Shown here: in pieces, positions 13,493 to 30,996 of the stretch
Numbering within the stretch: the first letter of the stretch is position 1
Layout of the letters: each line of letters starts with the position of its first letter
From: an uncultured Clostridia bacterium
Lineage (GTDB): Bacteria; Bacillota; Clostridia; Oscillospirales; Oscillospiraceae
Assembly: GCA_947164825.1 (NCBI GenBank)
Contig: CAMUYE010000018.1
Coordinates: 1-32,139, forward strand
Direction of reading: 5' to 3'
Length of the DNA: 32,139 nt
Position numbers and translations under genes: made by a program
Notes under the pieces: model-generated
Told to the model about the DNA's origin: nothing
The model's database searches: none
What the model saw: only the letters and a program-made list of their open reading frames with translations

Positions 13493-13520
13493 TGGACAAA
13501 TTCACCGAATGTGCTATAAT
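13493..13520 (+). promoter_or_regulatory. Extended -10 promoter for the C1A protease gene
   Basis: TGGACA-N16-TATAAT with TGC directly before the -10. Confidence 0.7.
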
Positions 13521-13571
13521 AGCAATGTATCGGGACGCCCGATGCAAAATTATTTTGATGGGAGAGTTTTT

Positions 13572-16500
13572 ATGAAACACTCGCTGAAAAAGGTCATGGC
13601 GCTTCTTCTTGCAACGATTCTGGTCATGACGATGCTTCCGACTGTCGCCTTCGCCGGAAACGGGATCGCCGGAGAAGGCCGGGCCGACGACGCCCGGATA
13701 CCCAACGACTACATCCCCTTCGTGCGGCACGGCAGCAGCGCCGTCTCCGACGCCTACGCCCGCGGCGATATGGCGACCTACCGCCAGCTCTCGGGCTGCA
13801 GCGCCACCCGCGGCACCCTGCCCTCCAGCTACGACAGCCGCGACTACGGCTACATCACCTCCGTCAAGAATCAGAACCCCTACGGCACCTGCTGGACCTT
13901 CGGCACCATGGCCCCCATCGAGGCCTACATGATCAAGCACGGCATCATCAACAAGGCCACCGGCGCCGCCGCCACCACCAGCATGGACCTCTCCGAGTAC
14001 CATCTGGCCTGGTTCACCTACACCAACGCCTATGACGCCGAGGGCATGCTCACCGGCGACAAGACCACCGCCAAGACCGACAGCAGCGCCTCCTCCTATC
14101 TGGATCGGGGCGGCAACTACGCCCTTGCCACCTATACGCTGATGCGCTGGGAAGGCGCGGCCTCCGAGTCCACCTCCGCCCTGGCCTACAGCAACGCCTC
14201 CACCTCCGGCCTGAACTCCCAGTACGCCTACGCCTACAACGTGGCCCACGTGACCGACGCCACTTGGATCAACGTCTCCGATCAGGACGCCGTCAAGCAG
14301 GCCATTATGGAGTACGGCGCCGGCACCATCAGCTACTATCACAGCGACAGCTATCTGAATACCTCCACCTACGCCTACTACTACAACGCCGGCACCTCCT
14401 CCAACCACGCGGTCACCGTCGTGGGCTGGGACGACAACTACGCCGTCTCCAACTTCAAGTCCGGCAAGCGGCCCTCCAACCCCGGCGCCTGGATCATCAA
14501 GAACTCCTGGGCCTCCTCCTGGGGCAAGAACGGCTACTTCTACCTCTCCTACGAGGATACCTCCGTCGTCAACGGCGCCTGCTGCTTCTACAAGGTCGCC
14601 GCGGAAGACAACTACGCCCACTGCTATCAGTACGACGGCACCGCCAACGTGGTGAACTATCAGAGCATGGGCAATAACTGCCAGATCGCCAACATCTTCA
14701 CCGCCAACGGCACCCAGTCCCTGAAGGCCGTGGCCCTCTCCCCCTGGGACGAGGCCACCACCTACACCCTGTACATCTACACGGGCCTGAGCTCCGACAC
14801 CAACCCCACCTCCGGCACCCTGGCGTGCACCCAGACCGGCTACCTGCCCTACTCCGGCTACTTCACCATCCCCCTGGATCAGAGCGTGTCTCTGACCAAC
14901 GGCGAGAAGTTCTCTGTGGTCTTCAAGCTGAGCACCCCCGAGCCCGACCCCGACGAGAACAACACCTACGTCCACATCCCCTACGACGCCACCAGCAGCG
15001 ACGTCAGCTGGGTCACCTTCACCCACACCAACCACGGCAACACCTCTTACTATAAGGAAGCCAACGGCTCCTGGACCAACGTGCCCAACAACGGCGACTT
15101 TCGCATCAAGGCCTACACCGACGACGCCTCCTACACCGTGACCGCCGTCTCCAACAACACCAGCTACGGCACCGTCTCCGTCAACGGCAACAAGATCACC
15201 GCCAGCCCGAAGACCGGCTACTACGTCTCCGACGCCCAGGTGACCTCCGGCACCGCCACGGTCTCCATCAACGGCAACGTCATCACCGTCAACGCCTCCT
15301 CCGACTGCACCGTCAAGGTCATCTTCGCGGTCAAGCCCCAGTATACCGTGACCTACAAGGCCCTGGGCTCCACCCTGAGCACCGCCACGGCCTACGTGCA
15401 GGACGTCATCAACCTGCCCGCCACGGCCACCGCCGTCGACGGCTATAGCTTCGTAGGCTGGACCACTTCCACCGTGGCCGAGACCACCGTGAAGCCTGAG
15501 TACTACGCCCCCGGCGCGGAGTACACCGTCACCGGCAACGCCACCCTCTACGCCCTCTATACTCGCAGCGAGGGCAGCGGCGAGATCGTCTACGAGATCG
15601 TCTCCGAGCCCATCACCGACTGGGCAGGCAAGTACGTCGTCACCTGCGGCAAGGACAGCTCCATGCTGGTCCTGAAGGGTCTCTCCGGCAACACCTCCTA
15701 TGAGAGCTCCTCCGCCGGCGGCGCCGCCAGCTTCTCCGGCACCGGCATGACCCTTGACAACGGCGTGCTCAAGAACGTCGGCAGCGCCTACATCTTCGAG
15801 GCCGCCTCCGCCGACGGCGGCTGGAGCCTCAAGAACGCCTCCACCGGCACCTACCTGGGCAGCTACAACAGCTACCTCTACAGCCGCTCCTCCTACTCCT
15901 CCAGCTACTGCGTCTGGAGCCTGGAGTACGACACCTACAACATCTGCATGAAGGTGAGCAACGCCGCCAGCTCCAGCTACCCCTACCTGGTGAAGGGTTC
16001 CAACAGCTACTTCGTCATCAACAGCGGATACACCACCAACAAGACCCAGCTCTGGAAGCAGACCACCGCCTCCACCACCTACTACAACACCAACCCCTCC
16101 GCGACCCACACCCACACCGCCGCGGCCGCCGTGCAGGAGAACTACGTGGCTCCCACCTGCACCGCCGCCGGCAGCTATGACGAGGTTGTCTACTGCTCCA
16201 GCTGCGGCGAAGAGATGAGCCGCACCGCCAAGACCGTGGCCGCCCTGGGCCACAACGCCGGCTCTCCCGTCCAGGAGAACTACGTGGCTCCCACCGAGAC
16301 CACGGACGGCGGCTACGACACCGTGACCTACTGCACCCGCTGCAGCGCCGAGCTGAGCAGGACCCACACCACCCTGCCCGCCACCGGCCCCACCGTCTAC
16401 TACACCGTGAGCTTCTCCGTGCCCAATGGCGTGACCTCTCCCGCCAGCCAGACCGTGGCCGCGGGCGGCTCCGTCACCCTGCCCACCGCCGGCGCGCCCG

Positions 16501-18197
16501 ACGGCTACAGCTTCGTCGGCTGGGTCACCGCTTCCTGCGAGAACGTCACCGTCAAGCCCACCGTCCTGACCGGCTCCTACACCCCCGCCGCCAACGTCAC
16601 GCTCTACGCCCTGTACTCCTTCACCGAGGGCAGCGGCGGCGACACCGTCTACCAGCTGGCCGACGCCTTTGAGAACGGCGGCAAGTACATTCTCGTGGCC
16701 TCCGGCGCCGTCTCCGGCACCAGCGGCAAGGCCGTCGGCAACACGGCGGTCACCAGCAGCCACTACCTGACCCCTGTGGCCGTCACCGTCAACAGCGACA
16801 ACACCGTGACCGCCACTTCCACCAACCTGCCCAAGGTCCTGTGGGTCGCCTCCGGCAACAGCACCAACGGCTACACCCTCTACAACGAAGCCGTCGGCAA
16901 GTACATGGGCCTGGATTCCTCCGAGTATCTGGCTCCCACCGCCAGCGGCCTGGCCTGGACCTACACCTCCGACCAGTATCTGGATAACAAGGTGGACAGC
17001 GAGGGCTACTACTACCTGTCCTACTCCTCCAGCTCCACCGTCCGCTACACCACCAGCAAGTCCGGCGCCGTCATCAAGCTCTACAAGGAAACCAGCACCG
17101 GCGCCACCTACTACACCACCGTGATCGGCGAGACCACCCACACCCATACAGCCGCGGCCGCCGTGCAGGAGAACTACGTGGCTCCCAGCTGCACCGCCGC
17201 CGGCAGCTATGACGAGGTCGTCTACTGCGCCACCTGCGGCGAAGAGATGAGCCGCACCCACAAGACCGTTGCCGCCCTGGGCCACAACGCCGGTACGCCC
17301 ATCCAGGAAAACTACGTGGCCCCCACCGAAACCACGGACGGCGGCTACGACACCGTGACCTACTGCACCCGCTGCAATGCCGAGCTGAGCCGTGAGCACA
17401 CCACGCTGCCCGCCACCGGCAGCACCACCTACTACACCGTGACTTTCTCCGTGCCCTCCGGCGTGGCCGCTGTCAGCGCCATGACGGTGGAAGCCGGCGG
17501 CTCCATCACCCTGCCCACCGCAGGCGCTCCGGCCGGTTACACCTTCCTCGGCTGGGTCACCTCCACTGTGAGCGACGCCACCGAGCAGCCCACCACCTAC
17601 ACTGGCACCGTGACGGTCAACGGCAATGTGACGCTGTACGCCCTGTACTCCTACACCGCTTCCTCCGGTTCCGGCGAGACCGGCTACGAGCTCCTGGGTT
17701 CCGCTCCCTCCGACTGGACCGGCAATTACATCATCACCTACGGCACCAGCACCTCCAGCCTCTACGTGCTCAAGGGCCTGTCCGGCAACACCAGATATGA
17801 GTCCACCTCCGCCGGCGGCGCGGTCCTGTACAGCAACGCTGGCATGAGCTACGCCGACGGCATGATGACCGGAGTGGGCAGCGCCTACGTCTGGAACCTG
17901 GCCAAGACCGGCTCCTACTACACCATCAAGAGCGCCAACACCGGCACCTACCTGGCCAACAAGAGCAACTACCTCTACAGCCAGAGCTCTTACAGCTCCA
18001 GCTACTGCCGCTGGACCCTGTCCATGGACAGCTCCGGCAACGTGACCGCCAAGAACACCGGCTCCAGCCGCTATCCCTACCTGAGCTTCTCCAGCAGCAA
18101 GTACTTCATGGTGAACTCCTCCGTGCCCACAGGCCTGTACTTCTGGAAGGAGACCACCACCTCCGGCAGCTCCGTGACCTACTACACCACCGGCTGA
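13572..18197 (+). CDS. Large secreted papain-like (C1A) cysteine protease with InlB-like B-repeats, Cys-pair repeats and three lectin-like modules
   Basis: Signal peptide MKHSLKKVMALLLATILVMTMLPTVAFA; QNPYGTCWTFG (Cys codon 13890), NHAVTVVGWDD (His codon 14406), KNSWASSWG (Asn codon 14502); repeats YSFVGWxT...VTLYALY (x3) and LKGLSGNTxYES...NYLYSxSSYSSSYCxW. Confidence 0.93.
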   Translation: MKHSLKKVMALLLATILVMTMLPTVAFAGNGIAGEGRADDARIPNDYIPFVRHGSSAVSDAYARGDMATYRQLSGCSATRGTLPSSYDSRDYGYITSVKNQNPYGTCWTFGTMAPIEAYMIKHGIINKATGAAATTSMDLSEYHLAWFTYTNAYDAEGMLTGDKTTAKTDSSASSYLDRGGNYALATYTLMRWEGAASESTSALAYSNASTSGLNSQYAYAYNVAHVTDATWINVSDQDAVKQAIMEYGAGTISYYHSDSYLNTSTYAYYYNAGTSSNHAVTVVGWDDNYAVSNFKSGKRPSNPGAWIIKNSWASSWGKNGYFYLSYEDTSVVNGACCFYKVAAEDNYAHCYQYDGTANVVNYQSMGNNCQIANIFTANGTQSLKAVALSPWDEATTYTLYIYTGLSSDTNPTSGTLACTQTGYLPYSGYFTIPLDQSVSLTNGEKFSVVFKLSTPEPDPDENNTYVHIPYDATSSDVSWVTFTHTNHGNTSYYKEANGSWTNVPNNGDFRIKAYTDDASYTVTAVSNNTSYGTVSVNGNKITASPKTGYYVSDAQVTSGTATVSINGNVITVNASSDCTVKVIFAVKPQYTVTYKALGSTLSTATAYVQDVINLPATATAVDGYSFVGWTTSTVAETTVKPEYYAPGAEYTVTGNATLYALYTRSEGSGEIVYEIVSEPITDWAGKYVVTCGKDSSMLVLKGLSGNTSYESSSAGGAASFSGTGMTLDNGVLKNVGSAYIFEAASADGGWSLKNASTGTYLGSYNSYLYSRSSYSSSYCVWSLEYDTYNICMKVSNAASSSYPYLVKGSNSYFVINSGYTTNKTQLWKQTTASTTYYNTNPSATHTHTAAAAVQENYVAPTCTAAGSYDEVVYCSSCGEEMSRTAKTVAALGHNAGSPVQENYVAPTETTDGGYDTVTYCTRCSAELSRTHTTLPATGPTVYYTVSFSVPNGVTSPASQTVAAGGSVTLPTAGAPDGYSFVGWVTASCENVTVKPTVLTGSYTPAANVTLYALYSFTEGSGGDTVYQLADAFENGGKYILVASGAVSGTSGKAVGNTAVTSSHYLTPVAVTVNSDNTVTATSTNLPKVLWVASGNSTNGYTLYNEAVGKYMGLDSSEYLAPTASGLAWTYTSDQYLDNKVDSEGYYYLSYSSSSTVRYTTSKSGAVIKLYKETSTGATYYTTVIGETTHTHTAAAAVQENYVAPSCTAAGSYDEVVYCATCGEEMSRTHKTVAALGHNAGTPIQENYVAPTETTDGGYDTVTYCTRCNAELSREHTTLPATGSTTYYTVTFSVPSGVAAVSAMTVEAGGSITLPTAGAPAGYTFLGWVTSTVSDATEQPTTYTGTVTVNGNVTLYALYSYTASSGSGETGYELLGSAPSDWTGNYIITYGTSTSSLYVLKGLSGNTRYESTSAGGAVLYSNAGMSYADGMMTGVGSAYVWNLAKTGSYYTIKSANTGTYLANKSNYLYSQSSYSSSYCRWTLSMDSSGNVTAKNTGSSRYPYLSFSSSKYFMVNSSVPTGLYFWKETTTSGSSVTYYTTG
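16104..16388 (+). repeat. 285-bp direct repeat copy 1 inside the protease gene (Cys-pair module THTHTAAAAVQENYVAP...LPATG)
   Basis: Near-identical to 17136-17420, offset 1032 bp (in frame). Confidence 0.9.
17136..17420 (+). repeat. 285-bp direct repeat copy 2 inside the protease gene
   Basis: Near-identical to 16104-16388. Confidence 0.9.
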
Positions 18198-18353: not shown

Positions 18354-18440
18354 ATGAAAAAACTGATCGATGAGCCGGTTCGCCGCCGCTTCGGCGCCTG
18401 CCGCGCATCGGATTACGAAACCCGGAGAAGACTGTTATGA
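18354..18440 (+). CDS. Candidate 28-aa small/leader ORF MKKLIDEPVRRRFGACRASDYETRRRLL
   Basis: Stop TGA (18438-18440) overlaps the ligase ATG (18437-18439); ATG sits at the expected transcription start. Confidence 0.3.
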   Translation: MKKLIDEPVRRRFGACRASDYETRRRLL

Positions 18441-20365
18441 CGGACTATCAGATCGGCGGCGCAAAAACCATCAACTCCTTTGTTGCGGAAAAGCTGCAGG
18501 CCTTCCGGGACCAGGGGCTCCGCTTCGAGACCCTGTTCGCGCTGATGTTCCGGGAGCGCGACAACGTGCTGTACGAACGCAGCGTCGGCTGGAAGATCGA
18601 AAGCACGACCTACGCGGAGGCAAAGGAACACGCCGAACAGAGAGCCGCCCGCCTGCGCTCGAAGCTTCCCGGACTGGAGCAGGACTCCGTGGTGGGCCTG
18701 TATCTGGACAACAGTCTGGCCTGGATCGAGTGCTTCTGGGCCATTCTGATCGCGGGCTTCCGCCCTCTGCTGATGAATCTTCGGCTGGATCGCCGTCTGC
18801 TGGAGCAGACTCTGGCGGACACCGGCTGCTGTGCCGTGATCGCCGAAGGTACGGCCTTCTCCTGCCCGACCCTGTCTCCGGCGGAGCTGGAAGGGGAGGG
18901 GCTGCCCGTTCCCGGCGTGCCCTTCGGGACGGAGCTTATGGTCATGTCCTCGGGCACCTCGGAGCACGTCAAGGTCTGCGCCTACAGCGCCGAGGAGTTC
19001 TATTATCAGATCTGCGACAGCTATGCCATCGTCCGGGAATGCCGCCGGATCAAGCGCCATTATGACGGGAAATTGAAGCTGCTGGCGTTTTTGCCCTTCT
19101 ATCACGTCTTTGGCCTGATTGCCATGTATATCTGGTTCGGGTTCTTCTCCCGCACTTTTGTCCACCTGCCGGATCTGGCGCCGGAGACCATCGTCAATAC
19201 GATCCGGCGGCATAAGGTGACCCATATCTTCGCGGTCCCCCTCTTCTGGGAGAAGGTCTATGAGCAGGCCCTCCGCGGCATCCGGGATCGGGGCGGGGAG
19301 ACCCTTGCCCGCTTCGAGCGGGGCGTGAAGCTCTGGGAAAAGCTTCCCGCGCCTGTTGCCGAAGCCTTCTCGAAGCGCGCCTTCCGGGAGGTCCGTGAAA
19401 AGCTCTTCGGCGAAAGCGTCCAGTTTATGATCACCGGCGGAAGCATGATCGACCCGAAGATCCTGCGCTTTTTCAACGCCATCGGCTACCGCCTTGCCAA
19501 CGGGTACGGCATGACGGAGATCGGCATCACCTCCGTGGAGCTCTCCGCTTCCCACCGCTGGCTTTGCGGCGGCTTTGTGGGCGGACCCATGCGCTGCGCG
19601 GAGTACCGCCTGGCCGAGGACGGGGAGCTGCTGGTCCGGGGGCAGGTTATCGCCCGCCGCGTGCTGACCGAGGGGCTGTGGACCGAACCCGACGGCTGGT
19701 TCCATACCCGGGACCTGGCAGTCTGCGAAAATGGCCACTACCGCCTGCTGGGCCGCAAGGACGATCTGATCGTGGGCCCCGGCGGCGAGAATCTGAACCC
19801 CAATCTGCTGGAGCCCCTGCTCCAGCCCGTCGGCTGCGGCCCTGTCTGCCTCATCGGCAGCAAGCGGAGCGGCAAGACCGCCCCCGTCCTCCTCGTGCCC
19901 GCCGACGGCCTGGCTTCCACCCGGGAGCTGGAGGCGCTGAAACAGGATGCGGCTGCCCGGATCGAGGCCGCCGGACTCCGGGGCGAGATCGCGAAGGTCG
20001 CCCTCGTACCGGGGCCGCTGATGCTGCCGGAGGAATTCAAGCTCAACCGTCTGCGCCTGGCCCGGGCCTATGATTCCGGTGAACTTCGGGAGACGGATCC
20101 CGCCCTGCGGGGGGAAGGCGTGTCGAAGGATGCGCTGCTGCAGCGGATTACAGCCTGCTTTGCCAAAGCGCTCTGCGCCGAGGCAGGGGAGATCGGGGCG
20201 GACCAGGACTTCTTCCTGGACCTGGGCGGCACCAGTCTGGACTACTTCGCCCTGCGGGCAGAGCTGCAGGATGAACTTGGCGTGTCCTTCCCCATGGAGA
20301 GCGCCGAGCTGCACACTGTCCGCCAGTTTGCCGACTATCTACGAAACCACCGGGAGATCGGATGA
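18437..20365 (+). CDS. AMP-binding acyl ligase (acyl-ACP synthetase-like) with C-terminal carrier (ACP/PCP) domain
   Basis: FLPFYHVFGL, NGYGMTEIGI, GWFHTRDLAVCENGHYRLLGRKDDLIVGPGGENLNP; C-terminal carrier DFFLDLGGTSLDYFALRAELQDELGVSF. Confidence 0.9.
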   Translation: MTDYQIGGAKTINSFVAEKLQAFRDQGLRFETLFALMFRERDNVLYERSVGWKIESTTYAEAKEHAEQRAARLRSKLPGLEQDSVVGLYLDNSLAWIECFWAILIAGFRPLLMNLRLDRRLLEQTLADTGCCAVIAEGTAFSCPTLSPAELEGEGLPVPGVPFGTELMVMSSGTSEHVKVCAYSAEEFYYQICDSYAIVRECRRIKRHYDGKLKLLAFLPFYHVFGLIAMYIWFGFFSRTFVHLPDLAPETIVNTIRRHKVTHIFAVPLFWEKVYEQALRGIRDRGGETLARFERGVKLWEKLPAPVAEAFSKRAFREVREKLFGESVQFMITGGSMIDPKILRFFNAIGYRLANGYGMTEIGITSVELSASHRWLCGGFVGGPMRCAEYRLAEDGELLVRGQVIARRVLTEGLWTEPDGWFHTRDLAVCENGHYRLLGRKDDLIVGPGGENLNPNLLEPLLQPVGCGPVCLIGSKRSGKTAPVLLVPADGLASTRELEALKQDAAARIEAAGLRGEIAKVALVPGPLMLPEEFKLNRLRLARAYDSGELRETDPALRGEGVSKDALLQRITACFAKALCAEAGEIGADQDFFLDLGGTSLDYFALRAELQDELGVSFPMESAELHTVRQFADYLRNHREIG

Positions 20366-20368
20366 CCC

Positions 20369-21010
20369 ATGTTTTTGATTCGCTTTTGGCATGCCTTCAC
20401 CAAGCTGACCGGCTGGCCGGTGCAGTTCTTCTGCTTCCGCACGAAGCTGTATTATGAAGACCGTTCCGTCCAGGGACGGCATATCCGGGGGCCGGCCATT
20501 CTGATATCCAACCATACCGCGGTCTACGACTTCGCGGTGTATATGTTCGTGTTCTGGACCAGGACCCTGCGCTGCCAGATGGCGGAGCTGCTCTTTGACA
20601 TGCCCATGCTCGGGCGGCTCCTGCGGCATCTGGGGGGCATCCGGGTGGACCGAACGGGCTACGACTTCGGTTTTTTGAATCAGTCCCGGGAGATCCTGGA
20701 ACAGGGCGGCGTGGTGGAGATTTTCCCCGAGAGCCGCATCCCCCGGCCCGACGAGCCCAGGCCCCTGGAGTTCAAGGTCAGCGCGGCCTGGCTGGCGCTG
20801 GCTACCGGCGTGCCGGTGATCCCCGTGGTCACCAACGGCTCCTATTTTAACCGCCAACGGGCCCGGGTTCTCATCGGCAAGCCGCTGCTGGCCTCCGATC
20901 TCACGGAGGATGGCCTGGACGAAAAAGAGAACCTGCGCCTCGTTTCCGAACGGTTCCGGGAACGCATCATGGAATTGGAGAAGCTTCTCAATGAACAAAC
21001 AAGCAAATAA
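20369..21010 (+). CDS. PlsC-type lysophospholipid acyltransferase 1
   Basis: HX4D motif NHTAVYDF; FPESRIP; IPVVTNGSYF. Confidence 0.88.
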   Translation: MFLIRFWHAFTKLTGWPVQFFCFRTKLYYEDRSVQGRHIRGPAILISNHTAVYDFAVYMFVFWTRTLRCQMAELLFDMPMLGRLLRHLGGIRVDRTGYDFGFLNQSREILEQGGVVEIFPESRIPRPDEPRPLEFKVSAAWLALATGVPVIPVVTNGSYFNRQRARVLIGKPLLASDLTEDGLDEKENLRLVSERFRERIMELEKLLNEQTSK

Positions 21011-21662
21011 AGCGAAGCCCGTTTCGTTTCGCTATCTGTTTTACGACTTCGTAAAACTGACGGCCGCTCTGCCTGGCTTGATCTGGCTTCGCCCGAAGTG
21101 GATCTTCGAGAGTCCCGCCGCGAGAAAGCGGATCCGGGGCGGCTGCGTCGTGATCGCCAACCACGCCGGTTTTTTGGATCCGGTCTACGTGATGTTCGCG
21201 ATCTGGTATCGGCGGCACCGCTTCGTCTGCGACAAGCTGTTCTTCCAGGGGAAAAAGCGCTGGCTCTTTCAGGGCTTCCGCTGTATCCCCGTTGACCGGG
21301 AAAACTTCGGCATGGACTCCATGCGGAAGATCACCGGGGAGCTGCGCGGCGGTTCGCTGGTCTCGATCTTCCCTGAGGGACATATTTCCCAGGAGGGCGA
21401 GGGGGGACTGGCTTCCTTCAAGTCCGGCATGGTGCTGATGGCCCTCCAGGGCAAAGCGCCCATTGTGCCGGTCTACTGCTGCCAGAAGCCGCATGTTTAC
21501 AGTCGGCTGCGCATCGCCATCGGCGAGCCCATCAACATCATGGAACGCTACGGTTCCCGCCCCTCTCTGCCTCAGATCGAAGGCATCGTCGAAGATCTGC
21601 GGGCAAAGGAGGAGGAACTGATCGCTTTAGTCAATACTAAGAGGAGGATAAAAGAGAAATGA
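20991..21662 (+). CDS. PlsC-type lysophospholipid acyltransferase 2
   Basis: HX4D motif NHAGFLDP; FPEGHISQEGEGGLASFKSGMVLMAL; start at ATG 20991, overlapping the previous gene by 20 nt. Confidence 0.9.
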   Translation: MNKQANKAKPVSFRYLFYDFVKLTAALPGLIWLRPKWIFESPAARKRIRGGCVVIANHAGFLDPVYVMFAIWYRRHRFVCDKLFFQGKKRWLFQGFRCIPVDRENFGMDSMRKITGELRGGSLVSIFPEGHISQEGEGGLASFKSGMVLMALQGKAPIVPVYCCQKPHVYSRLRIAIGEPINIMERYGSRPSLPQIEGIVEDLRAKEEELIALVNTKRRIKEK

Positions 21663-23179
21663 TCGTCACGACCAAGGAAGCTTTCCGGAAATACACGGAC
21701 GAAGCGCAGTTTGCCCGCATCGTCGAGATGGATACGGTCTCCGAGATGTGGACGCGCTGCCTGGCCGACTACGCGGAGCTGCCCGCCATCGTGGACGGCG
21801 GCGTGAGCCGGAGCTATGCGGAGCTGGAGCGGGATGCGGCCGGCTTCCGTACCCTGCTGGATCAAGCCGGGGCAGGGGAGCGCGTCGCCATCTTCGCGGC
21901 AAACTCCTACGATTTTGTCAAGGCCTATCTGGCTGTCGTCACCACGGGCCGCACGGCGGCGATTTTCCCGGCCCATCTGGACGCGGGCGCTGTGTTTGGC
22001 TGCTGCATGATGTTTGGCGTGTCCGCTCTGATCTATCAGCCGAGCTTCAGCGAGCGGCTGGAGCTGCTTCGCCAGCGCAGACCCGACCTGAAGCTGCTGC
22101 CCGCCGACGCCCTCTGCGAGGAAAAGACCCCCCACCGGGCCTGTGAGGCCAAGACGCCCTGTGCCATCGTCTTTACCGGCGGCACCAGCGGCAAGAGCAA
22201 GGGTGCGCTGCTCTCCAACCAGGCGGTCATGCAGGGCACGGTCAACGGCTGCTACGGGTACCCCGACGTGTTTGAGCAGCGCTATCTGCTGATCCTGCCC
22301 CTGTCCCACGTCTTCGGCCTGATCCGCAACCTGATGACCAGCCTCTACACCGGCAGTACGCTGTGGATCTGCCGCGACAACAAAGAGATGTTCCGGGACA
22401 TCGCCATGTTCAAGCCCACGATCCTGGTCATGGTACCGGCTCTGGCGGAAATGGCTCTGACCCTGTCCAAGAAGTTCAAGCGCAATATGCTCGGCGACGA
22501 TCTGAAGTGCATCATCTGCGGCGCCGCGCCGGTCTCTCCTTTCCTGATCGCCGAGTACGACAAGATCGGGGTCAAGCTCCTTGCGGGCTACGGACTGACC
22601 GAATCGGCCAACCTGGTTTCCGGAAACCCGGAGAGCCTGACCAAGCCCGAGTCTGTGGGCATTCCCTATCCGAACCAGGAGCTCCGGATCGAAAACGGGG
22701 AACTCTGGCTCAAGGGCAAAAACATGATGGAGGGCTACGTGGGGACGGAGGAGCCCGACGCCTACAGCGACGGCTGGTTCCGTACCGGCGACCTGGTTCG
22801 CATGGACGAGGACGGGTACCTCTACATCACCGGCCGCATCAAGGAGATCATCGTTCTGCCCAACGGCGAGAACGTCTCTCCCGCGGAAGTCGAGGCCCAT
22901 TTCAACACGCTGGCGCTGATCCAGGACTCCCAGGTTTTTGAAGACCGGAGCGAGCTCGGCGCGCCGATCCTCGCCCTTGAGGTGGTGCTGCGGCCCACCG
23001 AGCTGGCCCAGCTTCCCGAGGAAGAGCGCCGGGCGAAGGCGGTGGCACAGCTGGAGGAGATCAACCGCAGCCTGCCAGGTTGGATGCAGGTTTCCAAAAT
23101 CACCGTCCGGGACAGCGATTTCAAGCGCACGCCGGCTATGAAGATTGTGAGATATCATTATGGAACTGACAAGAACTGA
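21659..23179 (+). CDS. AMP-binding acyl ligase 2 (acyl-CoA/acyl-ACP synthetase-like)
   Basis: P-loop FTGGTSGKSKGALLSN, LLAGYGLTES, GWFRTGDLVRMDEDGYLYITGRIKEIIVLPNGENVSP, C-terminal FKRTPAMKIVR. Confidence 0.93.
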   Translation: MIVTTKEAFRKYTDEAQFARIVEMDTVSEMWTRCLADYAELPAIVDGGVSRSYAELERDAAGFRTLLDQAGAGERVAIFAANSYDFVKAYLAVVTTGRTAAIFPAHLDAGAVFGCCMMFGVSALIYQPSFSERLELLRQRRPDLKLLPADALCEEKTPHRACEAKTPCAIVFTGGTSGKSKGALLSNQAVMQGTVNGCYGYPDVFEQRYLLILPLSHVFGLIRNLMTSLYTGSTLWICRDNKEMFRDIAMFKPTILVMVPALAEMALTLSKKFKRNMLGDDLKCIICGAAPVSPFLIAEYDKIGVKLLAGYGLTESANLVSGNPESLTKPESVGIPYPNQELRIENGELWLKGKNMMEGYVGTEEPDAYSDGWFRTGDLVRMDEDGYLYITGRIKEIIVLPNGENVSPAEVEAHFNTLALIQDSQVFEDRSELGAPILALEVVLRPTELAQLPEEERRAKAVAQLEEINRSLPGWMQVSKITVRDSDFKRTPAMKIVRYHYGTDKN

Positions 23180-23417
23180 AATCACCGAACGGCTGCGGGA
23201 GATCCTGCTGGCAGCCGACGACCGGAACCGTGACGTGGTGGCCGCCTGTACGGAGGATTCCCGCCTCGTTGCCGACCTGGGCTTCACCTCGGTCAGCATG
23301 CTCTACATGGTCATTGCCATCGAGGAGGAATTCAATATCCGATTCGAAAACGTCGGTGTCGCTGACTTCAACACCCTGGGCGAGGTCATCGACTACATCG
23401 AAGCGCAGCTGAAGTAG
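23160..23417 (+). CDS. Stand-alone acyl carrier protein
   Basis: 85 aa; phosphopantetheine site DLGFTSVSMLYMVIAIEEEFNIRF; 20-nt overlap with the upstream ligase. Confidence 0.88.
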   Translation: MELTRTEITERLREILLAADDRNRDVVAACTEDSRLVADLGFTSVSMLYMVIAIEEEFNIRFENVGVADFNTLGEVIDYIEAQLK

Positions 23418-23426
23418 AGATCCGCC

Positions 23427-24401
23427 ATGATCGTTCTGTACATATTGCTGGGTCTGGCGGCACTCTATCTGGTGTTTGTGTTCGGACCGGCTGCCGTCGC
23501 CTCCAAGGTCATTTTTTCCCGCGGGACGGGGACGGAGTTCGACCGGGCCATCGCGCCGGAGGGAGATTTTGCCTGCTATGCGGAACAGCTCCGCGCCGGA
23601 CGGGATCTGCTGTACGCCGAAGGGCTTCGGGAAGTATCCGTTTCCTCTGAAGACGGACTCCGGCTCGCTGCGGACTACCGGGACGCCCACTCCGCATATA
23701 CGGCGATCCTGCTGCACGGCTACCATTCCGATCCCATGCTGAACGTCTCCGTTCAGGGCGCCTGCTTCGCGAAACGCGGCTACAATATTCTGATCCCGGA
23801 TCAGCGCGCCCACGGCCGCAGCGGGGGAGAGCGGACCGGACTCGGAATTCTGGAGCAGGAGGACCTGCTGACCTGGACGCGCTGGCTCCTGGCGGAGACC
23901 TCCACGCGGCGGATCGTCGTCTACGGCGTCTCCATGGGCGCGGCGACGACAGCTTACGCCTCCGATCGGCTGGATCCCCAGACTGTGGCAGCCATCGTCC
24001 TCGACTGCGGCTTTGATTCGCCGGATTCTCAGATCCGGAGGGAATGCGTGAAGCGGCATCTTCCTCCCTTCCTGATGATGCCGGTCATCCGGCTGCTGGC
24101 GAAACGCCGGTTGGGCAGGGACATCCGCTGCTCTGTGCACGATTCCCTCTCCCGAACCACGATCCCGGCCTATTTCCTGCACGGCACCCGGGACCAGACC
24201 GTACTCTGGACGGAAGGCCGCGCCGCCTTTGAAGCCTGCGCTTCCAAAAAATCGTTCTATTCCGTGGCCGGAGTCGGCCACGCCGCTGCGTTCCTGAAGG
24301 ATCCTGAGCGGGCCGAAGAAGCCCTCTTTGCGTTCCTGGAAGAGGTCGATCCCTCCGCGGGACGGCCGCATATAAGCGTCAACCAAACAAATCAAGCATA
24401 A
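23427..24401 (+). CDS. Membrane-anchored alpha/beta hydrolase (Ser nucleophile)
   Basis: N-terminal TM MIVLYILLGLAALYLVFVFG; LLHGYHSDPM, DQRAHGRSGGER, GVSMGAATTAYAS, GTRDQTVLW, VGHAAAF. Confidence 0.88.
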   Translation: MIVLYILLGLAALYLVFVFGPAAVASKVIFSRGTGTEFDRAIAPEGDFACYAEQLRAGRDLLYAEGLREVSVSSEDGLRLAADYRDAHSAYTAILLHGYHSDPMLNVSVQGACFAKRGYNILIPDQRAHGRSGGERTGLGILEQEDLLTWTRWLLAETSTRRIVVYGVSMGAATTAYASDRLDPQTVAAIVLDCGFDSPDSQIRRECVKRHLPPFLMMPVIRLLAKRRLGRDIRCSVHDSLSRTTIPAYFLHGTRDQTVLWTEGRAAFEACASKKSFYSVAGVGHAAAFLKDPERAEEALFAFLEEVDPSAGRPHISVNQTNQA

Positions 24402-24414
24402 TCAGGAGGAGAAA

Positions 24415-25347
24415 ATGAAACAGTTTGCCATTCTTGCCGACGGTACCTGTGATCTCAATGAGGGATTCCGGAAACAGTACGACGTCAAGGTGCTGCCCGG
24501 TCACATTGTCCTGCCGGACAAAAGCGACATTCCCGCTTTCCTTACCTGGGAGAACTATCCCAAGGAGAAATTCTATGCCGATCTGAAGAAGACCCCCAAT
24601 GACTTCACCACCGCGCCTCCCAACACCGCGGAGTTCGCCGACGCGATGGAGAAGATCGTTATGGACGGGACCCAACTGCTGGTGATGACCATCTCCGGCG
24701 GCATGAGCGGCGCCTTCCAGTTTGCCCTTTCCGCCCGGAAGCAGGTGCTTGAAAAATATCCGGACGCAAAGATTAACTGTGTAGACAGCATGCGCTTCGG
24801 CCCCGGCTTCGGCCTGATGGCCGTTTGGGCCGCCAAGCTCCGCGCCGAGGGCAAGGATCTGGACGAGGTTACCCGCGAGCTGGAGGAGAATAAGAACCGA
24901 TTCCACCAGGCAGGCTGGCTGGATGATCTGAGCTTTGTGGCCAAGAAGGGCCGCCTGACCAACGCGAAGGCCTTCTTCGGCACCCTGGCGGGCATCAAGC
25001 CCATCGGCGAGTTCGACTACAACGGTCTGACTACGGTCATCGGCAAAGCCAAAGGCGCCAAGGCAGCCTATGAGGTCCTGATGACCTATATCGAGAAGAC
25101 CATTGAGAACCCCGAGGAGCAGATGATCTTCATTGCCCAGACCAACCGGATGCCCCAGGCTGAAAAATTCCGCGACCTTATTCAGGAGCGCTTCCACCCC
25201 AAGGAGATTTTTATCAACGACGTGTTCCCCTCCTGCGGCATCAACATCGGCCCCGGCCTCATGGCCGCCTATTATATGGGCAAGCCGATCTCCCGGGATC
25301 TGTCCGAGGAAAAGGCGATTATCGAACAGGCGCTGGCCAAGGCCTGA
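24415..25347 (+). CDS. DegV family fatty-acid-binding protein (FakB-like)
   Basis: LADGTCDLNEGFRKQYDVKVLPGHIVL, TISGGMSGAFQFA, DDLSFVAKKGRLTNAKAFFGTLAGIKPI, INIGPGLMAAYYMG. Confidence 0.9.
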   Translation: MKQFAILADGTCDLNEGFRKQYDVKVLPGHIVLPDKSDIPAFLTWENYPKEKFYADLKKTPNDFTTAPPNTAEFADAMEKIVMDGTQLLVMTISGGMSGAFQFALSARKQVLEKYPDAKINCVDSMRFGPGFGLMAVWAAKLRAEGKDLDEVTRELEENKNRFHQAGWLDDLSFVAKKGRLTNAKAFFGTLAGIKPIGEFDYNGLTTVIGKAKGAKAAYEVLMTYIEKTIENPEEQMIFIAQTNRMPQAEKFRDLIQERFHPKEIFINDVFPSCGINIGPGLMAAYYMGKPISRDLSEEKAIIEQALAKA

Positions 25348-25382
25348 ACGACAGCTGAATCTGAAACTGGAAAGGGATAGTT

Positions 25383-26726
25383 ATGAGAAAACTGACGAAA
25401 AAATGGCAAATGTTCCTGTACGCCATCGGCGGCATGGGCGTCAATATGCTCAATCTGATGGTGGGCTCCTACCTCTGCTCCGCCCTGATCGCCTCGGGCT
25501 TCGGAAAGGAAGCCGTGGCAAATCAGACCTTCCTGGGCCGTGACCTGGTCTTTGCCGGGACCTGGGCGGTCTTCGGCGTCATCGCCAAGATCATCGACGG
25601 CGTCATCGACGTGCCCATGGCCTCCTTCACCGACAACCTGAAGACGAAGTTCGGCCGCCGCCGTCCCGCTTTGATCATCGGCCTCGTTCCCATGATCCTG
25701 GCCTACGTGCTCTTCACCCTGGTGACGCCGAACCCCGAGGGCGCTACCATGCTGAACACGGTCTTCTACGGCCTGGTGCTCTGCGTGTTCTTCAGCTTCT
25801 ATACTCTCACCATGGTCACCTACTACGCTACCTTCACCGAGATCGTGGACACCCAGGAGGAGCGCAATTTCATCTCCAACGTCAAGTCCGTCTGCGATAT
25901 CGTCTACTTCATCCTCGGCTACGTGGTGGTGCGGATGCTGCTCAACGGCATGAACATCCGGCTGGTGTCCATGATCGTCCTGCCCATGGTTCTGACCATG
26001 CTGATCCCCCTGTTCCTCATCAAGGAGCGTTCCACGGAAAAGGGAATCGTGACAGACGAGAACGGAGAGGTCTCCAAACCGGTCAACCTCTTCAAGTCGA
26101 TTGGCTTTACCTTCAAAAACAAGAATTATATCCTCTGGATGCTGGTCTACTCCTTTATGACGCTGGGCGTCCAGCTCTTCCTCAGCGGCATCAACGAGTA
26201 TTTCTCCGTGGCCGGTATGAGTATGATGTTCGTGATGATGGCGGCCTTTGCGCCGGTGCCCCTGACCCTCCTGCTCTACAACTGGTTCACCCGGCGCTTC
26301 GGCTTTGGCTTCTCCTATCGCTACGTGCTGATCATCTTCGCTGTGGGAATGCTTTCCATGTTCGGCGTCTCCCTGCTGCCAGCGGGCACTCTGAAGACCG
26401 TCCTGGCCATCGTCACCGGCCTGATTTCCTCCTTCGGCATCGGCGCCATGTTCTCCGTGGCCTATTCCGTGCCCTCGCAGCTGGCGGCGGAGGAGGAGAA
26501 AAAGACCGGCGTCTCCAACGCCGCCATGTACTTTGCCGTGCAGGGCCTCTTTGCGGGCGTTGCCTCCGGCATCGGCGGAGCCGCCATTCTCACCTGGCTC
26601 AAGACGACGGATAACGTTCGTTATATGACGCCGATCTGCGCCATTGCCATGCTGCTTGCCTTCGTCCTGTCCTTCCTGCTTCCCAAATCCGTCCGCGAGA
26701 TGGGTAAGAAGAACGGCAAGAACTGA
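25383..26726 (+). CDS. MFS_2 / GPH-type cation symporter
   Basis: About 12 hydrophobic segments; helix II/loop motif KIIDGVIDVPMASFTDNLKTKFGRRRP (MelB-like DxxxD). Confidence 0.85.
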   Translation: MRKLTKKWQMFLYAIGGMGVNMLNLMVGSYLCSALIASGFGKEAVANQTFLGRDLVFAGTWAVFGVIAKIIDGVIDVPMASFTDNLKTKFGRRRPALIIGLVPMILAYVLFTLVTPNPEGATMLNTVFYGLVLCVFFSFYTLTMVTYYATFTEIVDTQEERNFISNVKSVCDIVYFILGYVVVRMLLNGMNIRLVSMIVLPMVLTMLIPLFLIKERSTEKGIVTDENGEVSKPVNLFKSIGFTFKNKNYILWMLVYSFMTLGVQLFLSGINEYFSVAGMSMMFVMMAAFAPVPLTLLLYNWFTRRFGFGFSYRYVLIIFAVGMLSMFGVSLLPAGTLKTVLAIVTGLISSFGIGAMFSVAYSVPSQLAAEEEKKTGVSNAAMYFAVQGLFAGVASGIGGAAILTWLKTTDNVRYMTPICAIAMLLAFVLSFLLPKSVREMGKKNGKN

Positions 26727-26778
26727 GCGAAAGCGGCAAATCAAGAACGTAACACTTTATCAGGAAGAGACTTGAATC

Positions 26779-28422
26779 ATGTCTGTCAAACGAATTAACG
26801 GCGTTCAGCTGGAGCAAATGCTCCGCAACGGTCTCGCCAACCTGCGTCTGCATGAGAAGGAGATCAACCAGCTCAACGTATTCCCGGTCCCCGACGGCGA
26901 CACCGGCACGAATATGCGCATGACCCTGGAGCATGGACTTCAGAGCGCCCACAGCACCACTGAGGCGGGGGAGTATCTGAAAGCCCTCGCAGCGGGGACG
27001 CTGCTCGGCGCCCGGGGCAATTCCGGCGTCATCCTCTCCCAGTTCTTCTATGGCTTTGCCCAGGAGCTGTCCCGCAGTTCGCTGATTGGGCCGGGCGAGC
27101 TTCGCAACGGCTTGATCCGAGGCTACCGCGTGGCCTATGACGCGGTGATCAGCCCCGTGGAGGGGACCATGCTCACCGTGGCCCGGGAGGGCATCGAGCA
27201 TATCCGCGCCCAGATCACCCGAAACAGCGGGATCGACGTGATCCTCTCCATGTACACCGCGGAGATGCGGAAGACCCTGGCCCAGACGCCGGAAATGCTC
27301 GACGTGCTCAAGGAGTCCGGCGTGGTAGACAGCGGCGCCGCCGGTTTTATTCTGATCTTCGAGGGCATGCTGAAGCAACTTCGGGGCGAACAGCTGGACG
27401 ACGGCGAACGCATCGTCCGCGAATCCGCCGAACCGGAGGGGCCGGATCTGAGCCTTTTCGACGAAAACAGCGCGTTTGTGGACGGCTATTGCATGGAGTT
27501 CATTCTCCAACTGATGAACGCCAAGGAATACGAGCACAAATTCAGGCTCCAGGCCTATATCCGGGCGCTGGAGAAGCTGGGCGAGTCCATTGTCTGCGTA
27601 CAGAATGAGAAGCGGATCAAGGTCCATATCCACACGAAAAAGCCCGCGATCATCATCCAGTATTCCCAGAAGTACGGAGAATTCCTGACCTTCAAGCTGG
27701 AAAACATGCAGCTCCAGCACAATGAACGGGATCGGAGCATCCGTCCGGAGAAGCATAAGCCGCTCGCGATTGTGGCAGTGGTGAACGGCTTTGGCATGCG
27801 AAAGCTCTTTGAAAGCCTCGGCGTGGACTTCGTCATCGACGGCGGCGCCACCATGAACACCTCCTCCAAGGAATTTGTTTCCGCCATCGAGAGACTCAAC
27901 GCCGATGTGGTTGTGATCCTGCCGAACCATAAGAACGTGATCCCGGCAGCGGAGCAGGCGGCCGCCCTGGTTACGGGGAAAACTGTCACGGTTATCCCCA
28001 CCAAGAGCGTTGCTGAGGGCTATTTCTCCATCGCTATGGATATCCCGGACAGCGCGGACGTCGAAAACCGGATTCACCAGCTCCGCCGGGGCAGGGAAGA
28101 TGTCATCACAGTCTGTGAGACCACTGCCTCACGGGATTTCTCCTGGCACGAGCTGAACTGTCGTCGGGGCGATGAGATCGCGCTGCGCAACGGAGAGCTC
28201 TGCTGCGTCGGCAGCGACTGGAAAACGTTGATCCTCGACGCCCTGGCGCAGATCGAGGACATTGAAGACAAGGAGACCTGCGTCGTGTTCCGCGGGCTCA
28301 ACGTCCCGGAGGAGGACGAGGAGCTTCTTTCCGAGGCTGTGGCCGAGCGCTATCCGATGCTGGAGCTCAGCTTCGTGGACGGAGGCCAGGAGATCTATCA
28401 ATGGATACTGGGGGTGCCGTAA
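26779..28422 (+). CDS. fakA: FakA-like fatty acid kinase (DAK2/DhaL domain plus FakA C-terminal domain)
   Basis: INQLNVFPVPDGDTGTNMRMTL, LLGARGNSGVILSQFFYGF, GVVDSGAAGFILIFEGML, VKVHIHT-like KVHIHTKKP, GGATMNTSSKEF, ILPNHKNV. Confidence 0.93.
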   Translation: MSVKRINGVQLEQMLRNGLANLRLHEKEINQLNVFPVPDGDTGTNMRMTLEHGLQSAHSTTEAGEYLKALAAGTLLGARGNSGVILSQFFYGFAQELSRSSLIGPGELRNGLIRGYRVAYDAVISPVEGTMLTVAREGIEHIRAQITRNSGIDVILSMYTAEMRKTLAQTPEMLDVLKESGVVDSGAAGFILIFEGMLKQLRGEQLDDGERIVRESAEPEGPDLSLFDENSAFVDGYCMEFILQLMNAKEYEHKFRLQAYIRALEKLGESIVCVQNEKRIKVHIHTKKPAIIIQYSQKYGEFLTFKLENMQLQHNERDRSIRPEKHKPLAIVAVVNGFGMRKLFESLGVDFVIDGGATMNTSSKEFVSAIERLNADVVVILPNHKNVIPAAEQAAALVTGKTVTVIPTKSVAEGYFSIAMDIPDSADVENRIHQLRRGREDVITVCETTASRDFSWHELNCRRGDEIALRNGELCCVGSDWKTLILDALAQIEDIEDKETCVVFRGLNVPEEDEELLSEAVAERYPMLELSFVDGGQEIYQWILGVP

Positions 28423-28426
28423 GAAA

Positions 28427-29362
28427 ATGGAGTGGTACTGGATCCTTCTCGGCGCGCTTCTGCTGCTGATCCTGTTTCCCACCATCCTCATCTCTTCCGT
28501 GATCTACACGATCCTGTTCGTGCGCACGGGCAAGGATAAATTCGGCCGGAGCTGCAGCTTCCCGGATGACCCGGAATACGTCCGGATGTTCAACATCGGC
28601 CTGGAATGGGGCAAGCAGTACGAAGCCTATAAACGGCCCGTGGAGATCGACAGCGACGGCTATCATCTGGTGGGAGAGTATTTCGACTTCGGCGGGAGCT
28701 CCGCCGTCCTCATCGTCGCGGGCAGAACCGAATGCCTGTTGTATTCCTACTATTTCGCGGAGCCCTACCGAAAGGCGGGGCGCAACGTCCTGGTCATCGA
28801 CAACCGTTCCCACGGCCTGTCGGAGGGCAGGGTGAGTTCTCTCGGCTATAAAGAATACCGGGACCTGCTGGCCTGGTCCCGGCTGCTCCACGACGAGCTG
28901 GGCAACGAGACCGTCCTCTTCCACGGGGTTTGCATCGGCGCCTCTGCGGCCCTGTTCGCCCTGACGAGCCCGGACTGCCCGGACTGGAACGAGGGGCTTG
29001 TCGCCGATGGGATGTACTACAATTTCTATAAGTCCTTTGAGAACCACATGAAGGCGGACCGGCCCAAAAGAATGCGCTTCCCCGTCATGCAGGTGGTCAT
29101 GCTCTGGATTCGTCTCTTCTCCGGGGCGGACGTGGTCTTTGACGGCCCCTTTAAGCGGATCGAAAAGCTGAAAAAGCCCATCCTCTTCCTCTACAGCCGG
29201 GAAGATACCTACTCCACCCCGGACCAGGCGGAATATCTTTACGCCCACTGTACGGCGCCGAAGAAGCTCGTATGGTTTGACAAAGGAGCCCATTCCCGGA
29301 TCCGGATCAACACGCCCGAGGAGTATGACGCTGAAATAATGGAATTTGTGTCGAAATTGTAA
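28427..29362 (+). CDS. Membrane-anchored alpha/beta hydrolase with Cys at the nucleophile elbow
   Basis: N-terminal TM MEWYWILLGALLLLILFPTILISSVIYTILF; DNRSHGLSEGR; elbow HGVCIGASAALF; SREDTYSTPDQ; DKGAHSR. Confidence 0.85.
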   Translation: MEWYWILLGALLLLILFPTILISSVIYTILFVRTGKDKFGRSCSFPDDPEYVRMFNIGLEWGKQYEAYKRPVEIDSDGYHLVGEYFDFGGSSAVLIVAGRTECLLYSYYFAEPYRKAGRNVLVIDNRSHGLSEGRVSSLGYKEYRDLLAWSRLLHDELGNETVLFHGVCIGASAALFALTSPDCPDWNEGLVADGMYYNFYKSFENHMKADRPKRMRFPVMQVVMLWIRLFSGADVVFDGPFKRIEKLKKPILFLYSREDTYSTPDQAEYLYAHCTAPKKLVWFDKGAHSRIRINTPEEYDAEIMEFVSKL

Positions 29363-29421: not shown

Positions 29422-29452
29422 ATAACTATCTTTGAGAAAAGGAGGATTCCAA

Positions 29453-29767
29453 ATGGATCCGCAGTACAACCAGTCCAACTTCAAGTCGTCTGTTTATCAG
29501 ACCATGGCCCAGCCCAACCTCCTGGTGTTCGGCATTCTGAGCCTCGTGTTCTCCGGTATCGTGGGACTCATCCTTGCCATCGTCGGCAGAAAAAAGGGTA
29601 AGGCTTTCATCGAGCAGGGCGGCACTCTCACCGGCGCCTCCAAGGTCGGCTACATCCTTTCCCTGGTTGGCCTGATCTTCAGCATCATCGCCATCGTCTT
29701 CATCGTGATCTACATCATTATCATCATTGCAGCTGCCGGCGCTGCCTCCAGCTACAGCTACTATTAA
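29453..29767 (+). CDS. Small two-TM membrane protein, DUF4190-like
   Basis: NLLVFGILSLVFSGIVGLILAIVGRKKGKAFIEQGG...ASKVGYILSLVGLIFSIIAIVFIVIYIIIII; AAAGGAGG RBS. Confidence 0.8.
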   Translation: MDPQYNQSNFKSSVYQTMAQPNLLVFGILSLVFSGIVGLILAIVGRKKGKAFIEQGGTLTGASKVGYILSLVGLIFSIIAIVFIVIYIIIIIAAAGAASSYSYY

Positions 29768-29838: not shown

Positions 29839-29970
29839 CGGGAAAAACAAATATCCCGGCTTGATCCTGTCCACCGATTTTCAAAACCGTATCCTGTTCC
29901 CCGTCTGTCGGAAGGGTATAAAGCCCCGAAAACAGGGGATCCTCATTTTGTGCCGGAAGGAGACCGCTCC

Positions 29971-30996
29971 ATGAACGACCAAACCATATGCGCTTCCGGG
30001 ATCCGGCACGGATCCTCTGTTCGAAAGGCGTTGAAAATCCTCGTGATCATCATTCTGATCTATTCGTTGGGCTCCGTGGCCCTCTCCGCCATCATTTACC
30101 GTCTGCTCTTTCCCCGGCGGGACGGCATTTCCGAGTTCCGCTATACCTATTCTGAGCTGGGCGCGGAGGCTCCGCCCCGGGAGGCGTTCCGGTTTTCCTC
30201 CGGTGATAATCTGCTGTCGGGCTACCGATATGACGCGGAGGATCCGAAGGGCCTGATCGTGGTAGTCAACGGCGTCGGAGCCGGGGTGGACGCCCATCTG
30301 CCGGAGATCTGCTACTTCGTCGCCCACGGCTATTCCGCCGTGGTCTGGGATAACACCGGCATCGGGGAAAGCGAGGGCCGCTGGTCCGTCGGGATGCAGC
30401 AGATCAAGCTGGATCTCCTGGCCTTTCTGGATTGGCTGGAGGCGCAGAAGCCCGGAGAAGAACTGCCGGTTTTCCTCTACGGGCACAGCGCAGGCGCTTA
30501 CGCCGCCTGCACCGCCCTGGCGACCGACCACCGGATCGACGGCGTGATTAGTATTGCCGCGTTTGAATCTCCCATTCAGATCATGCTTCACCATGCCAGA
30601 AATCGCGTCGGCCTCCTGGCAGATCTGCAGAGCCCCTTCCTCCGCCTGGAGAATCTGCTCCTCTTTGGAGAAGACTCTGACTGTTCCGCCTTCGAGGCGA
30701 TCAACGCAGCCGAGGTTCCGGTGCTGATCGTTCAAGGCAACTCCGACGATCTGGTGCCTTACAGCCAAAGCCTGATCCGCTTTGAGGGAGAATTTGAGAA
30801 TCCCCGGGTCTGCTGCGTGGAGATCACCACCGAATACCGCAACGAGCATTCTACGCCTTGGCTCTCCGAAGCGTCGGCCTGCTACGAGTATACCCTCCCG
30901 AAAGGGGAGACCCCGGATAAATCCCAGGCCAACGAGCTCAGCGAAACCTTCATGGGGGAGCTGTTGGCCTTCCTGGACGAAACCGTGGGCCGCTGA
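29971..30996 (+). CDS. Membrane-anchored alpha/beta hydrolase (Ser nucleophile)
   Basis: N-terminal TM KILVIIILIYSLGSVALSAIIY; WDNTGIGESEGR; elbow YGHSAGAYAA; VQGNSDDLVPYSQS. Confidence 0.85.
   Translation: MNDQTICASGIRHGSSVRKALKILVIIILIYSLGSVALSAIIYRLLFPRRDGISEFRYTYSELGAEAPPREAFRFSSGDNLLSGYRYDAEDPKGLIVVVNGVGAGVDAHLPEICYFVAHGYSAVVWDNTGIGESEGRWSVGMQQIKLDLLAFLDWLEAQKPGEELPVFLYGHSAGAYAACTALATDHRIDGVISIAAFESPIQIMLHHARNRVGLLADLQSPFLRLENLLLFGEDSDCSAFEAINAAEVPVLIVQGNSDDLVPYSQSLIRFEGEFENPRVCCVEITTEYRNEHSTPWLSEASACYEYTLPKGETPDKSQANELSETFMGELLAFLDETVGR

Follow-up and report, generated by a model that had tools for sequence, protein, structure and literature searches.

MFSD2A (SLC59A1) is an animal symporter that couples the transport of lysophosphatidylcholine to Na+, and MelB, a member of the GPH family, is a melibiose/Na+ symporter. 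FakAB is the fatty acid kinase system of Gram-positive bacteria. In E. coli, the Aas protein, which combines an acyltransferase with an acyl-ACP synthetase, is encoded beside lplT (PMC11416262). The LplT-Aas pair has been reported only from Gram-negative bacteria; the authors of that work noted that further lysophospholipid transporters may exist, and cited lyso-PC uptake by Gram-positive bacteria and MFSD2a as hints of this (PMC11416262). LysoPC uptake and GPC scavenging in mitis-group streptococci proceed via unidentified transporters (PMC6805115).

We analyzed a 32,139-nucleotide stretch of DNA (the window) from an uncultured Clostridia bacterium. An initial annotation had proposed that one of its genes encodes an MFS_2 protein that might act as a lysolipid symporter, with MFSD2A and LplT as parallels.

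Gene composition of the operon

Ten genes on the plus strand, overlapping or separated by no more than 52 nt, occupy positions 18437-29362 (Table 1) in the order AMP ligase-ACP fusion, PlsC1, PlsC2, AMP ligase, ACP, hydrolase 1, FakB, MFS, FakA and hydrolase 2. The transporter gene had been described as lying between fakB-like and fakA genes with no sugar gene nearby, and this description is correct, although the context goes further than was described. The gene follows the FakB gene after 35 nt and precedes the FakA gene by 52 nt, all on the same strand. A scan of window genes revealed no sugar gene; the scanned genes encode EF-Ts, ribosomal protein S2, TldD/PmbA, a molybdenum hydroxylase, an SLH protein, an esterase, a papain-like protease and the lipid-related proteins.

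Table 1. Features of the operon, its downstream flank and longer relatives of the transporter (positions in the window unless a locus is given)
Feature	Position	Strand	Remarks
AMP-binding ligase fused to acyl carrier domain	18437..20365	+	domain profiles
PlsC-type acyltransferase 1	20369..21010	+	HX4D motif
PlsC-type acyltransferase 2	20910..21662	+	HX4D motif; true start probably slightly downstream
AMP-binding acyl ligase	21659..23179	+	candidate acyl-ACP synthetase
Free acyl carrier protein	23160..23417	+	DLGFTS motif
Alpha/beta-hydrolase 1	23427..24401	+	GVSMG serine elbow; hydrophobic segment at N-terminus
FakB/DegV-like fatty-acid carrier	24415..25347	+	Asn replaces His of HxGPG
MFS_2 transporter	25383..26726	+	447 aa, ATG start, 12 TM; cation-site D72, D76, T141
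DGVID, DxxxD cation motif	25596..25610	+	TM2, residues 72-76; ORF frame
FakA-like fatty acid kinase	26779..28422	+	DAK2, FakA-M, FakA-C; PDGDTG motif
Alpha/beta-hydrolase 2	28427..29362	+	Cys in nucleophile elbow (GVCIG); N-terminal TM helix
Small two-TM protein	29432..29767	+	often downstream in close relatives too
Alpha/beta-hydrolase-like protein 3	29950..30996	+	GHSAG; peripheral; conserved only in close relatives
Longer MFS_2 relatives	L049:5159-7060, L051:9623-11551, L069:8371-10212, L071:8681-10630		three of four in acyl-ligase/PlsC clusters

The operon contains the functions of E. coli Aas split over several genes. Judged by sequence, a transporter is linked to acyltransferase and acyl-ACP synthetase functions in 26 loci, as in LplT-Aas; LplT, however, comes from another MFS branch, and the Clostridia operon distributes the Aas functions over separate genes and adds FakAB. 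Among NCBIfam models, acyltransferase 2 matches the Aas-type fusion PRK08633 best, with 70 bits against a far higher cut-off of 1221. The FakA-like protein exceeds the cut-off of the YloV subfamily (495.8 bits against 396) and misses that of the strict S. aureus FakA equivalog (364 against 975). With its three FakA Pfam domains, the PDGDTG motif and a DegV-fold FakB the operon resembles FakAB, whereas the classical system has no transporter and the operon FakB carries Asn in place of His270.

Elsewhere in the genome there are a stronger FakA match (contig C55), a further FakA match (C56), PlsX (C29) and other PlsC-family genes (for example, on C1). Since the genome has these other copies, the FakA and PlsC genes of the operon are extra, dedicated paralogues. 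Those other MFS_2 genes of the genome whose surroundings were inspected, on five contigs, were rejected as parts of the same system, as no cassette gene adjoins any of them.

Two further genes of the window were recorded. Directly upstream of the operon, positions 13509-18197 encode a protein of 1562 aa, probably unrelated to it, whose domains are of the papain-like protease, lectin-like and Listeria-Bacteroides repeat types. On the minus strand, positions 7926-10511 encode a molybdenum hydroxylase of 861 aa (xanthine dehydrogenase type), a single chain that carries both 2Fe-2S and MoCo-binding domains.

Family, fold and residues of the transporter

The assignment to MFS_2 is confirmed by Pfam: the product matches PF13347 with 95.3 bits (4e-27; cut-off 27), while its MFS_1 match is weak. 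The GPH sugar-symporter model gph TIGR00792 (NCBIfam) gives 35.6 bits, the curated cut-off being 231. An AlphaFold2 model calculated with 16 relatives (pLDDT 79.5, pTM 0.79) is mostly helical and of the 12-TM type. The top Foldseek matches of this model are MelB (E 9e-10, TM 0.72) and MFSD2A (E 1.5e-9, TM 0.70), and on the predicted structure the two are essentially tied. The top PDB sequence match found by phmmer is MFSD2A, a weak one (E 2e-4). A profile built from 30 relatives was uninformative in a search of the PDB, since it retrieved only a weak SUC1 fragment (E 0.007) and lost MFSD2A. No match to a defence system was found.

Of the two proposed parallels, that with MFSD2A stands as regards superfamily and fold, and the two TM2 cation-site aspartates of the proteins align. 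The Clostridia protein differs from MFSD2A in being bacterial and encoded in an acyl-gene operon, in its low identity (~15%) and in the absence of the TM11 lysine that MFSD2A and MelB have in common. The parallel with LplT stands for gene context but not for sequence, where no homology between LplT and the transporter is detectable (hhalign probability 0.6%).

Residues were compared in an alignment of the 30 relatives with MelB and two GPH paralogues from the same genome, with the roles of MelB residues, both at the Na+ site and in the sugar pocket, taken from PMC12851581. The DxxxD cation-site pattern noted initially in DGVID is well founded: MelB Asp55, Asp59 and Thr121 correspond to D72, D76 and T141, and all three are kept in 30/30 relatives. 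The position of MelB Asn58 is occupied by Ile, Val or Ala in the relatives. K69 and K168 of the transporter are also invariant, and E272 in TM7 is present in most of the clade.

As can be seen from the same alignment, the sugar pocket is different. Only Tyr120 and Gln372 are kept out of 14 MelB pocket residues, and the positions on TM1, 4, 5, 10 and 11 are not of the MelB type. Arg149 is replaced by Lys, and Lys18, Asp19, Ile22, Tyr26, Asp124, Trp128, Ala152, Trp342, Thr373, Val376 and Lys377 are altered; in the window protein the substitutions include Asp19 to Asn, Asp124 to Met, Trp128 to Tyr, Trp342 to Phe and Lys377 to Gly. The last of these is the TM11 lysine, present also in the GPH paralogues, and it is Gly, Ala or Ser in all 30 relatives. 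In contrast to the similar fold and the shared cation-site residues, the pocket sets the protein apart from MelB, as do a GPH score far below the cut-off and the lack of an alpha-galactosidase or other sugar gene nearby. The residue pattern fits a cation-coupled transporter without MelB-style sugar binding.

The loss of MelB sugar residues was also considered as proof of a lipid substrate, and was rejected. Two relatives in a sugar-gene neighborhood, L067 and L068, show identical losses; since they share all of them, the losses do not separate lipid from sugar. The absence of sugar-binding residues, which the initial annotation had suggested looking for, was therefore found but does not discriminate, as a 37%-identical relative in a sugar context lacks them as well. 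A hydrophobic C-lobe has been reported for LtaA and MFSD2A (PMC8866510). The number of charged and polar residues in TM cores, a crude proxy for this property, did not separate the transporter clade from the GPH controls, the polarity of its C-lobe core being no lower than theirs.

Conservation across Clostridia

Relatives were gathered from GTDB species genomes and from named MAG contigs, those retrieved by name being rumen and gut MAGs. At 26 same-clade loci from several Clostridia families, FakA lies on the same strand within 8 kb in 25, as do PlsC1 in 24, hydrolase 2 in 24 and AMP-ACP in 20; some of the contigs are short. It follows from the FakA linkage that the layout is not due to chance. 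The order in other families is FakB-FakA-MFS-AMP-ACP-PlsC-hydrolase 2, often with one PlsC, and a single PlsC was detected at about eleven clade loci (L043-L048 and L062-L066).

More distant relatives (~34%; L049, L051 and L069) are found in AMP-ACP-MFS-PlsC1-PlsC2-AMP ligase-ACP clusters that contain no Fak genes, L069 being without an AMP-ACP match. Since Fak is absent from these clusters, the partners that accompany the transporter throughout are PlsC and the acyl-activating functions. In the tree, many deep forks of which are open, the Fak-less acyl-linked relatives stand apart from the Fak-linked ones, with sugar-context and TetR-linked relatives nearby. Two acyl-linked transporter groups thus exist. 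These three distant MFS_2 relatives, together with L071, are longer (610-650 aa; Table 1), with a C-terminal membrane extension not named by Pfam.

The nearest outgroup consists of L067 and L068, at 37% identity. At both loci the transporter gene stands between genes for a ROK kinase and an amidohydrolase, and GH2 and PfkB genes are found near L067 (8482-11891). L067 possibly represents a sugar-type sister group, one of use for studying a change of substrate. In two close relatives (L036:7627-9321 and L037:3-1691) the match within an open frame of ~560 aa is interrupted beyond residue 338, which reflects either a C-lobe insertion of ~115 residues or an assembly error.

The transporter family is present in ~3% of the sampled genomes of the class. 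A phylum-wide sample of 399 genomes, searched at E<=1e-30, contained no genome with the family besides the window's own, which suggests that the family is restricted to the class Clostridia.

The AMP-ACP gene was found in 13 of 391 class genomes, and in eight of these 13 no MFS relative was detected at E<=1e-8. In one of the eight, G761 (L097), AMP-ACP, PlsC1, PlsC2, AMP ligase, hydrolase 1, FakB, FakA and hydrolase 2 follow one another in the window's order with MFS missing. Other MFS-free cassettes add PlsX, a second FakB, an LRAT-domain protein and GT2 and, once, a MATE transporter. An obligatory role of the transporter in the cassette is thus ruled out by G761 and seven further genomes. 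The cassette is therefore a module for glycerolipid acylation, and the MFS protein is its optional transport part. The MFS-free acyl cassettes (L097 and L099-L105) point, in their own right, to an uncharacterised Clostridia lipid gene cluster of broader scope.

Two partner proteins of the cassette are unusual. Hydrolase 2, whose fold resembles esterases and monoacylglycerol lipase, has GVCIG instead of GxSxG, with Cys in all 24 cassette copies checked and in most MFS-free cassettes too; it may be a thiol hydrolase or acyltransferase. In the operon FakB, NIGPG takes the place of the HxGPG/N of solved DegV/FakB proteins, so that Asn occupies the position of S. aureus FakB1 His270 in operon copies (Ser, Asn or Cys in MFS-free cassettes). 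His270 is part of the FakB carboxylate network (PMC8892158). The fatty-acid carboxylate site of the operon FakB may therefore be altered, and since this position is substituted, the cassette protein may bind a different ligand, or the same one differently.

Candidate function of the transporter

That the transporter is dedicated to a glycerolipid operon is well supported, and we consider it very probable. Starting from what is observed of the protein (its family, cation-site residues, lost sugar pocket and conserved operon context), we infer what it may carry, in which direction and with which coupling ion, and how the acyl donor may be supplied. A lipid building block is most likely as cargo, ahead of a sugar. 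FakAB would produce acyl-phosphate, the AMP ligases and ACP would produce acyl-ACP, and PlsC would transfer acyl chains onto a glycerol backbone, while the acylation acceptor would most likely be brought in by the MFS protein, a predicted cation-coupled transporter.

Lysolipid import is our leading guess for the transport step, a tentative one that we put somewhat short of an even chance. The MFS_2 transporter would take up a lyso-glycerolipid, either a phospholipid or a glycolipid bearing a single acyl chain, and flip it to the inner leaflet, where the PlsC acyltransferase(s) would restore the second chain from acyl-ACP made by the operon; free fatty acids would be dealt with by FakB/FakA and the hydrolases. 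A protein of the MelB/MFSD2A branch would here fill the place that LplT has beside Aas. We prefer a lysolipid because Aas with LplT is a known arrangement, because MFSD2A shows lysolipid transport within the same MFS branch and because many loci carry just one PlsC. Since L067 and L068 share every residue loss in a sugar context, polar substrates are compatible with the same residues. The missing TM11 lysine, the polarity of the C-lobe core with E272 in TM7, the cassettes that lack the transporter and the lack of detectable similarity to LplT also speak against a lysolipid.

A polar cargo could be a water-soluble glycerol head group (a glycerophosphodiester or galactosylglycerol) that is imported and then acylated twice by the two PlsC enzymes, the candidates being GPC, GPE or galactosylglycerol from plant galactolipids in the rumen. 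Polar solutes are the cargo of most MFS_2 relatives, the nearest outgroup lies in a sugar context, and the relatives retrieved by name come from the rumen and gut. The tandem pair of PlsC genes in the operon would suit double acylation, and mitis-group streptococci acylate scavenged GPC twice to make PC (PMC6805115). However, the roughly eleven clade loci with one detected PlsC are better suited to single acylation, and neither a glycerophosphodiesterase nor a glycosidase turned up in the operon; we regard this explanation as unlikely.

The additional genes of MFS-free cassettes (PlsX, the LRAT-domain protein, GT2 and the single MATE) look more like machinery for making a special lipid than for salvage, and MFS lipid exporters such as LtaA exist (PMC8866510). 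The transporter might then, in an LtaA-like manner and opposite to LplT, flip outward or export the finished molecule that the cassette makes, whether an acyl-glycerolipid of an unusual kind or some acylated compound. The conserved DxxxD and Thr, however, resemble the Na+ symport site of the importers MelB and MFSD2A, and there is no known cassette product, which leaves export rather improbable. A GPH-type symporter of the usual kind, carrying a sugar or other small polar compound and placed in the operon by chance, would agree with the superfamily, the fold and the sugar-context relative L067, but is very unlikely given a score far below the curated GPH cut-off, the lost sugar pocket and a linkage to acyl genes kept over many Clostridia families.

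Under the preferred reading, lysolipid import, it is conceivable, although we hold it with more doubt than confidence, that the lysolipid importer still missing from Gram-positive bacteria is this Clostridia-specific MFS_2 subfamily, which would parallel MFSD2A in bacteria and work with a split Aas-like operon and FakAB, and that lysolipid salvage evolved here separately from LplT-Aas. To our knowledge, no bacterial lipid transporter has been described earlier in the MelB/MFSD2A branch, and the Clostridia protein would be the first. The operon with its dedicated MFS_2 transporter provides a concrete, testable candidate for a lysolipid transporter and, if the proposal is true, would offer a simpler model for MFSD2A.
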